64,000 bases of DNA from Acidaminococcus massiliensis (GTDB lineage Bacteria > Bacillota > Negativicutes > Acidaminococcales > Acidaminococcaceae): assembly GCF_900095825.1 (NCBI RefSeq), contig NZ_LT608315.1, positions 1 through 64,000 on the forward strand, given 5' to 3'. Below, piece after piece: positions 34,280 through 36,538 of the stretch (positions within the stretch are counted from its first letter, which is position 1; every line of letters begins with the position of its first letter). The translations under genes were made by a program, and so were the position numbers. The notes under the pieces are model-generated. The model searched no databases, was not told where the DNA came from, and saw nothing but the letters and a program-made list of their open reading frames with translations.

Positions 34280-35536
34280 TTACTGCCGCTGGTAACGGGT
34301 ACCCCGGCCTTTGCCCACTTTCAGCACGGCCTTTTTCCCCACCAGCCGGTTCAGCAGACGGATGACTTTGGTCTTTTCAAAACCGGTGGCCTGTTCGATT
34401 TCCTGCCGGCTCAGCAGGCCATTTTCCGGAAATACGGCACAGATTCTTTGCTCCTCCTGGTCCAAGGGCGGCATGGCATCCACCAGAGGCAGGGTCACCT
34501 GGATAATATGATCCGTTACCTGAAAATCCGGTTTGATCCGGCTTTGGCGGTAGGCATAAAGGATCCGCTGGATGCCCGTTCCAAAGGCTTCAATATACCC
34601 CAGCCGATAGAACACATTGGCCAGTTTGGGATTCCGCAGAATGGAAATCTGATGATGGAGATATTCTTCCTGGCTGATGCCTGCCGGCAGTCCTCCCGGC
34701 GAGGTAATTTCCACCTTGTCCGGATACATGGCCACCCGTATAGCAGTGGGAATATCCCAGGTACGATGGACCAGAGCGTTGGCCATGGCTTCTCTGATGG
34801 CCTGACCGGGAATCTTCTCCACCATCCGCCGTTCCACTCCGTCGATTTTCTCCACCTGGTATTCCCGGGCAATCCGTTCCACAGCCTGGTGGAACAGGGA
34901 CAATACGGAACATCCATGGATTTTGATCCGTTCCCGGATTTCATTGATGGACCGGCCAAAGGCCATCATATCCACCCCCGGAAAGGTATTCTGATCAGAA
35001 AAAAGTTCCGCCACATGGGAGAACTTGCCTTCTGCCGTATAAAATCCCAATGTTTTCAATACATCCGTATCCACCTGAGAAACCCCCAGTTGTTTTTCCA
35101 TTTCCCGGGACAGGACGGAAAAGGTTAAAGAAGAATCCTCCGCCGGCAAATCTTCAAAATACCGGTGGGACCCTTCTAGGATCAACCGGTTTAAAGCCAG
35201 GCGGTCCACTTCAAGAGAAGCGGAATCACTCCTTCTATACGCTTTATTTTTGTACAGATATGGTGGATTGTCTCCTTTTCTCACCGTCAAGATAATAGTC
35301 TGGTTTTTTTCATTGATTTTCAGCGTATAATCAGGCTGCGGTGAAATACTGTCATTGATTTTATTTTCTATATCCAGACATTTTTGCACGGCTTGGGGAA
35401 TGCCCTTGACCGTACCATCATCCCGGACGCCAAAAATGATTTTTCCATCCTGATAATTGGCAAAAGCACTGACAGTCTTCAAAAAGGTGTTTGTAATATC
35501 TTCCTTATATTCCAATATATTGCTTTCCCGTTCCAC
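34280..35536 (-). CDS. AlbA_2/Schlafen-type ATP-binding transcriptional regulator
   Basis: A 418-residue protein. The N-terminal AlbA_2 domain (about 5-110) begins with ESNILEYKEDITN and contains GGKIIFGV-like FANYQDGKIIFGVRDDG. The middle has a degenerate GHKL-type ATPase region (REAMANALVHRTWD, about 250-330), and the C-terminus a winged helix (about 360-415, LLSRQEIEQATGFEKTKVIRLL). Family members act as DNA-binding regulators, sometimes beside mobile or defence genes. The start is GTG, with AGGAGG 9 bases before. Its promoter is enclosed by a 13-bp perfect inverted repeat, which suggests autoregulation. The LTA-synthase-like gene follows closely. Confidence 0.85.
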   Translation of the reverse strand: MERESNILEYKEDITNTFLKTVSAFANYQDGKIIFGVRDDGTVKGIPQAVQKCLDIENKINDSISPQPDYTLKINEKNQTIILTVRKGDNPPYLYKNKAYRRSDSASLEVDRLALNRLILEGSHRYFEDLPAEDSSLTFSVLSREMEKQLGVSQVDTDVLKTLGFYTAEGKFSHVAELFSDQNTFPGVDMMAFGRSINEIRERIKIHGCSVLSLFHQAVERIAREYQVEKIDGVERRMVEKIPGQAIREAMANALVHRTWDIPTAIRVAMYPDKVEITSPGGLPAGISQEEYLHHQISILRNPKLANVFYRLGYIEAFGTGIQRILYAYRQSRIKPDFQVTDHIIQVTLPLVDAMPPLDQEEQRICAVFPENGLLSRQEIEQATGFEKTKVIRLLNRLVGKKAVLKVGKGRGTRYQRQ

Positions 35537-35564: not shown

Positions 35565-35607
35565 CATTTGCGTTGCATTAATTATAGCAATGGTTGCAAC
35601 GCAAATG
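35565..35607. promoter_or_regulatory. operator pair enclosing the AlbA-regulator promoter
   Basis: A perfect 13-bp inverted repeat (CATTTGCGTTGCA at 35565-35577 and its complement at 35595-35607) surrounds a 17-base spacer. The spacer holds the extended -10 TGCTATAAT (minus, 35589-35581). A protein bound here would cover the promoter. Confidence 0.75.
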
Positions 35608-35633
35608 CAACGTAAATTTTGCGTTGCATTTGC
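35601..35633. repeat. second inverted repeat of the same motif
   Basis: GCAAATGCAACG (35601-35612) and its complement CGTTGCATTTGC (35622-35633) are separated by 9 bases. The left arm overlaps the right arm of the first operator pair, giving an array of half-sites upstream of the promoter. Confidence 0.7.
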
Positions 35634-35646
35634 GTTTGCAACGAAA
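35622..35646. repeat. 25-bp direct repeat, copy 1 (AlbA-regulator side)
   Basis: Identical over 25 bases to 36514-36538. It contains CGTTGCATTTGCG followed by TTTGCAACGAAA. The two copies bracket the MNT-HEPN gene pair. The rest of the stretch to 35758 holds no recognisable gene. Confidence 0.8.
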
Positions 35647-35758
35647 GAAAACCGCAGGGACTGTACAGCCGGCGGCCCGCAGAACACATGAACAGACGAT
35701 GTATCTGCGGGTGGCCGGACCTGCCGCCCCTACGGTTCCGATTTATACGCTTCTTTTT

Positions 35759-36151
35759 CTACCTGGCACCGCCTATTTTATCCAGCCAGAACTGGAGCAG
35801 CGGATCATACTGGCGGATCCGTTCCACCACCGCTTGGGCAAAAGTTTCATCATAGGTATGAGAGGTCAGATTCCGGTCATCTGCCATCTGCAGGGCCTCC
35901 TGGGTCTGCCTCTCATCCAGCAACCCCAGCTCCCGACAGCACCGGATGACTTTTTTAGGCGATGCCGCATCAATGCCTTCCTCTACATAAAGATACTCTT
36001 TGACACATTTCCACAGCAATTCAAAAGAAAATTCGAACCGCTGGATCAGGGCATCCCGTTCCACCTCGGATAGGTCCGGTTTAACTGCCAGTTCGTGGAG
36101 TTTGGCTAGTGCTCTTTGTGCTGTTTTTATGCGTTCTTGTACTTTTTCCAT
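35759..36151 (-). CDS. HEPN-domain toxin / nucleotidyltransferase substrate-binding protein (HI0074 type)
   Basis: A 130-residue all-alpha HEPN protein. The catalytic RX4HXY motif is intact (R93, H98, Y100 in RNLTSHTY). In the characterised Shewanella pair this motif is the RNase active site, and the partner MNT protein silences it by AMPylating the tyrosine. The start at 36151 (MEKVQERIKTAQ) overlaps the end of the MNT gene by 25 bases; an in-frame extension upstream has no homology. Order is MNT (antitoxin) then HEPN (toxin). Confidence 0.87.
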   Translation of the reverse strand: MEKVQERIKTAQRALAKLHELAVKPDLSEVERDALIQRFEFSFELLWKCVKEYLYVEEGIDAASPKKVIRCCRELGLLDERQTQEALQMADDRNLTSHTYDETFAQAVVERIRQYDPLLQFWLDKIGGAR

Positions 36152-36432
36152 AAAATACCCTCCTGACGAATTTTCTGCAGCAGTATTTTGCTGGCAAATT
36201 GCATATCCACCAAATCTATCCGATACGGAATACTGGACTCTTCTAGTTTTTCCCGCAATGAACAAATACTGGAGGCTATATTCTCTTTGCTTTCTATGGC
36301 TATATCTACATCTGAGCTTTGTTTCTGTTCACCCCGTGCCCAGGAACCAAACAGATAAATCTGGACATCCTGCGATGCCATTGAAGACAAAACAAGGTCT
36401 TTAATTTGTTCCAAAGCCTTCTGGGATTTCAT
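36127..36432 (-). CDS. minimal nucleotidyltransferase antitoxin (MNT, HI0073 type)
   Basis: A 101-residue DNA polymerase beta-like nucleotidyltransferase. It has the complete GSX10DXD motif (G29, S30, D41, D43) and a probable third metal-binding Asp in YRIDLVD (D76). MNT antitoxins transfer AMP to the HEPN partner. AAAAGGAG precedes the ATG, and the HEPN gene overlaps its 3' end by 25 bases. The promoter region carries a copy of the repeat found in front of the AlbA-type regulator. Confidence 0.9.
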   Translation of the reverse strand: MKSQKALEQIKDLVLSSMASQDVQIYLFGSWARGEQKQSSDVDIAIESKENIASSICSLREKLEESSIPYRIDLVDMQFASKILLQKIRQEGILWKKYKNA

Positions 36433-36513: not shown

Positions 36514-36538
36514 CGTTGCATTTGCGTTTGCAACGAAA
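36514..36538. repeat. 25-bp direct repeat, copy 2 (MNT-HEPN side)
   Basis: Identical to 35622-35646. Within it, GTTGCATTTGCGTTTGCAAC forms an imperfect palindrome. It lies between the terminator of the LPS cluster and the MNT promoter. Confidence 0.8.

Follow-up and report, generated by a model that had tools for sequence, protein, structure and literature searches.

A conserved inverted repeat over the promoter of a Schlafen-type gene in Acidaminococcus massiliensis is a likely autoregulatory operator

The window analysed here, a 64,000-nucleotide stretch of the Acidaminococcus massiliensis genome, contains a dense array of half-sites at the promoter of a Schlafen-type gene. This array is likely to be the operator of the gene that it precedes: judging from the DNA and its conservation, the encoded protein would bind it through a C-terminal winged helix and shut its own promoter. 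The gene (34280-35536, minus strand) starts with a GTG preceded by AAGGAGG and encodes a 418 aa-long protein composed of SLFN_AlbA_2, HATPase_c_4 and C-terminal winged-helix parts.

By consensus reading, the promoter consists of an extended -10, TGCTATAAT (35581-35589, minus strand), and a -35 element, TTGCAT (35605-35610, minus strand), located 18 bp before the -10 (TATAAT). A first-pass annotation had described a perfect inverted repeat of 13 bp, its arms 17 bases apart, around the extended -10, and this repeat is indeed present as CATTTGCGTTGCA (35565-35577) and TGCAACGCAAATG (35595-35607), enclosing TGCTATAAT on the minus strand. It is real but should not be taken for the main repeat, being conserved within Acidaminococcus only, whereas relatives keep a 14-bp dyad. 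That dyad corresponds to what had been annotated as an overlapping second repeat of 12 bp: the repeat exists and does overlap the 13-bp pair, but its arms are in fact 14 bp long and match perfectly (35599-35612/35622-35635); they flank an AT-rich centre of 9 bp (35613-35621, no strand), and the dyad lies over the -35. On the coding (minus) strand it reads ACGCAAATGCAACG (35635-35622, the promoter-distal arm), 9 bp, and CGTTGCATTTGCGT (35612-35599, the promoter-proximal arm); the latter includes the -35 TTGCAT, as seen from the sequence and the homologues. The second arm of the 13-bp repeat (35595-35607, minus strand) overlaps this proximal arm, and the first one (35565-35577, minus strand) provides an additional half-site, TGCAACGCAAATG, where transcription is expected to start; two congeneric genomes retain 12-13 bp of it. 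The further half-site and the shared motif reported earlier were both recovered, bringing the array to five TTGCGTTGCA-like half-sites, at 35568(+), 35595(-), 35606(-, 1 mismatch), 35619(+) and 35637(-, 1 mismatch), out of seven such matches in the whole window. The outermost of these, TTTCGTTGCA (35637-35646, minus strand), retains its core CGTTGCA in the 3 Acidaminococcus genomes compared. The 150 bp upstream of the gene contain 29 repeated 7-mers; shuffled versions average 4.9, and none of 500 reached the observed number. A separate GC-rich inverted repeat (34 nt, 74% complementary) occupies 35650-35737, directly after the neighbouring HEPN gene, and is visible also in A. fermentans (L001); it is likely a terminator or a small repeat element.

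Homologues were sought in 84,980 species genomes, which yielded 80 loci, mostly with proteins about 50% identical to that of the window. The best palindrome exceeded all 20 dinucleotide shuffles of its own sequence in 66 of 79 upstream regions. When a centre of 9-10 bp was required, dyads with at least 12 of 14 pairs were found in 81% of 77 targets versus 1.8% of 165 other promoters from the same loci. The geometry is nearly fixed among unrelated bacteria of the gut: in 67/72 homologues the centre measures 10 bp, and in 71/72 the right-arm CG precedes the -10 by 25-26 bp; many homologue promoters read TTGATT-17-TATAAT. Examples of sites at the matching place are GACGCAAATGCAACGCAAAAAAATACGTTGCATTTGCGTC (L002), CAGAAAATCAATCGTAAAAAAATACGATTGATTTTCTG (L058) and CCGACGCAAAACCGACGTAAAAATTTGCGTCGGTTTTGCGTCGG (L028), and the dyad is absent upstream in a few relatives (L066, L073, L079, L175 and L176). 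The arm letters differ by lineage (ACGTTGC, ACGATTG, ACGTCGG, ACGTTTG) and they change symmetrically: at arm positions 2, 4, 5, 6 and 10-13 symmetric change is far above that in re-dealt columns (for example, 0.91 vs 0.56). Further homologues of the same class carry TTTG, TTCT and TTCC arms, as well as additional cases of TTGC. Thus, what one would look for in an autoregulatory operator was found here: the gene's own promoter bears a symmetric site, homologues conserve this site, and it is in phase with the promoter elements.

More distant homologues, about 30% identical, were also inspected. Repeated promoter words are present in L092, L095 and L096 (0/500 shuffles as high) and in L091 and L094 (2-3% of shuffles), and L093, L097 and L098 show no repeated-word excess at the promoter. 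The arrays of L092, L095 and L096 use other words, such as CTATTCA and TAGCGAA, a hint that promoter arrays may be general in the wider family.

Both Pfam domains of the protein score above their gathering cut-offs (SLFN_AlbA_2, residues 4-108, 67.6 bits against 25.3; HATPase_c_4, residues 265-349, 72.2 bits against 26), which assigns it to the SLFN_AlbA_2/HATPase_c_4/wHTH family (COG2865-like). In the AlphaFold2 model (pLDDT 87.5), residues 360-417 are predicted to form a winged helix, with helices 360-367, 377-384 and 388-400 and strands 404-407 and 414-417, the predicted recognition helix being 388-400; a search for Pfam HTH domains gave no match at 0.001. In 31 homologues, residues E4, E9 and K11 never vary, and D39 is near-invariant. 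The RNase site of rat SLFN13 consists of E205, E210 and D248 (PMC5862951), and the E4/E9 spacing of 5 residues equals that of E205/E210 in that protein. Since E4, E9 and D39 resemble the Schlafen triad, and the SAMD9 tRNase domain and SLFN12 are among the fold matches (Foldseek, 8e-4 to 9e-4), the AlbA_2 domain is predicted to be an RNase and is more likely that than the DNA reader; the latter role probably belongs to the modelled winged helix. The proposal of an operator and of autoregulation is retained, on the grounds that dozens of homologues have a symmetric site, mostly one per genome, whose distance from the -10 is fixed, but the accompanying suggestion that the AlbA_2 domain would define the binding motif is not supported. 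The closest named homologue is that of A. fermentans, with 98% identity over residues 110-418. In this species (L001 3880-4020; L085 = G004 1380-1530) AlbA_2 (about residues 9-109) has been lost by an in-frame deletion, and the gene still has HATPase_c_4, the winged helix and the operator array.

The site is close to unique in the genomes searched. The 2,669,996-bp genome has 3 copies of the motif TTTGCGTTGCA, all of them within the array (reversed control, 0), so that the many unrelated genome-wide copies against which the first-pass annotation had cautioned are not seen. Allowing up to 3 mismatches, CGTTGCATTTGCGTTTGCAACG has 2 matches, at 35622 and 36514. A genome-wide regulon was considered and rejected: the exact motif is confined to the array, and an extra exact 14-mer (G000:C4:531253) sits within a dppC-like gene. 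Among genomes with ATTG arms the site is present in 31/31, as one copy each save for Coprococcus catus with two, leaving aside one-mismatch matches without an AT-rich centre. A two-mismatch pattern search of the TTGC-arm genomes returned many chance-like matches, equalling the reversed control in several of them, and the window's genome and the genomes with ATTG arms therefore document near-uniqueness best. Using the array as a query against plasmid DNA retrieved nothing. Additional sites were noted in a few genomes. The second site of Coprococcus catus lies between convergent genes. Butyrivibrio hungatei (G099) carries a second perfect operator copy (L146 3356-3377) some 20 bp in front of a gene for a DUF1016-like nuclease (named by eye); the operator may have been captured there, or a Schlafen-type gene may have been lost and left it behind. 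In three Macrococcus genomes a conserved hairpin, ACCACAACG...CGTTGTGGT, separates an ahpC-like from an ahpF-like gene (L149 3576-3597, L150 3282-3303, L151 3172-3193); it was considered as a second site and appears to be an unrelated hairpin.

Around the Schlafen-type gene in the homologue loci no neighbouring gene is found repeatedly in a constant position, and the operator therefore most likely serves this gene alone. In the window, a MntA-like nucleotidyltransferase (36127-36432, minus strand; 58 bits, just below the MntA cut-off of 60) and its HEPN/NTase-substrate-binding partner of the HI0074 family (35759-36151, minus strand), both outside the conserved unit, separate the Schlafen-type gene from a glycosyltransferase. 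The pair is bracketed by a 22-bp direct repeat: 35622-35643 of the array and an exact copy upstream of the pair (36514-36535, minus strand). In a congener with a 93%-identical protein (G001), the glycosyltransferase directly adjoins the Schlafen-type gene, MNT/HEPN being absent and the whole array present; A. fermentans (L001, G004) has the HEPN gene, with no MntA gene visible just before it. The centre of the 36514 copy lies about 47 bp from its -10, versus the canonical 31. Because of this non-canonical spacing and the absence of the flanked cassette from G001, we somewhat favour a relic of cassette insertion over a second operator for this copy; on the same grounds MNT/HEPN was set aside, short of proof, as a second regulated operon. 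The array was likewise rejected as an operator of a type VII (MntA/HepT) toxin-antitoxin system, given that G001 and distant homologues have a full array without the pair.

Arm class tracks the protein tree, with 8 changes versus 30 under shuffled labels. The arm letters follow this tree across many host families; a Phascolarctobacterium from the window's own family combines an ATTG-clade protein with ATTG arms. Such agreement could come from joint inheritance alone, because operator and gene are physically linked. Within the recognition helix, R393 is found in 21/23 TTGC-arm proteins against 2/67 others; the TTGC-arm relatives L172 and L173 lack it, and L036 combines it with ATTG arms. The correlation comprises just 2 well-supported independent changes on the tree (sign test, p 0.5), and E199, outside the helix, correlates with arm class slightly better; for these two reasons it may reflect shared ancestry. 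Coevolution of helix and arms is thus a suggestive lead in the alignments and is not significant.

The possibility that another, unlinked host regulator binds the dyad, the Schlafen-type protein being merely its regulated product, has to be weighed here. It draws on the helix-arm correlation not being phylogenetically independent and on the Schlafen-type protein being a predicted binder. We regard it as unlikely, since the site precedes the Schlafen-type gene alone in most searched genomes, its letters follow the tree of that very protein across many host families, and the protein has a predicted winged helix of its own. Autoregulation of the Schlafen-type gene is accordingly well supported by these comparisons, as far as sequence can indicate. 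The protein would bind as a symmetric dimer or a pair of dimers, with two half-sites per arm, and would cover the -35, so that its own promoter is shut off. In Acidaminococcus, the flanking extra half-sites would add further subunits, and the multiplicity of half-sites suggests that binding may be cooperative. Alternatively, the dyad could be an activation site from which a protein at the -35 recruits polymerase; a fixed phasing to the -10 is also typical of activators. Yet an arm that covers the -35 itself fits repression better, as do well-formed hexamers (TTGCAT-18-TGCTATAAT for the window, TTGATT-17-TATAAT for many homologues), and activation appears quite improbable. Finally, a terminator or RNA hairpin belonging to the upstream gene, which the strong RNA fold (-29.7 kcal/mol, z -7.3) and the short T runs after ATTG arms would suit, is highly improbable for a palindrome that keeps a fixed distance to the downstream -10 in 71/72 cases, lies upstream of the expected transcription start, follows a divergent gene in 23/66 cases, where a terminator would be senseless, has no T run after TTGC arms and has no match in Rfam.

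As a self-repressor, the Schlafen-type protein would have essentially one target, itself. Given an N-terminal domain resembling a Schlafen RNase and a GHKL/HATPase-like middle domain, its likeliest role would be that of a stress- or phage-response effector holding its own level low until released. Related architectures are on record. A 2026 paper describes, from 1017 taxa or more, Schlafen RNases that are joined to a minimal histidine kinase and a wHTH and lie near BREX core loci (PMC12839542); its passages on these fusions make no mention of an operator. The order of Schlafen/AlbA_2, GHKL-like ATPase and C-terminal wHTH is the same as in the window protein; those proteins are described there as BREX-linked, however, whereas no BREX genes were seen beside the window gene. 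TrlG of Photorhabdus, whose mutation or deletion relieves growth restriction at high temperature, combines AlbA_2 (14-128) with HATPase_c_4 (298-365) (PMC7554251). TrlG, which resembles the window protein in its domains, is encoded in an operon of three genes that includes TrlR, a small regulator in its own right. The best match in both fold and sequence is PDB 3lmm (C. diphtheriae DIP2311; Foldseek 1.6e-23, phmmer 1.4e-14), an uncharacterised protein with 18% identity and a whole-chain TM-score of only 0.47. WYL repressors of the BrxR family act on defence islands (PMC9122601) and resemble the proposed system as repressors on inverted DNA repeats at a phage-defence locus. BrxR controls a multi-gene island, in contrast to the window protein, which holds effector-like and predicted DNA-binding parts in one chain and has its own gene as apparent target. 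No published operator for the SLFN_AlbA_2/HATPase_c_4/wHTH family was found in the open-licence literature.

Schlafen/ATPase/winged-helix proteins are widespread and have been discussed as anti-phage effectors, with their mode of silencing left unstated in the literature found; a conserved, near-single-copy operator makes this silencing directly testable. More speculatively, these proteins might make up a large family of Schlafen RNase effectors, each encoded by one self-repressing gene: a single chain would combine repressor, ATP-binding module and RNase, and would have no genomic target other than its own promoter. The operator would then have been re-lettered repeatedly (TTGC, ATTG, TTTG, TCGG and others) with its geometry kept, so that the matched protein-operator pairs, about 90 with more than 8 different arm sequences, could constitute a natural recognition code for the winged helix of this family. 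A gene carrying its own control would also move more easily between unrelated bacteria.
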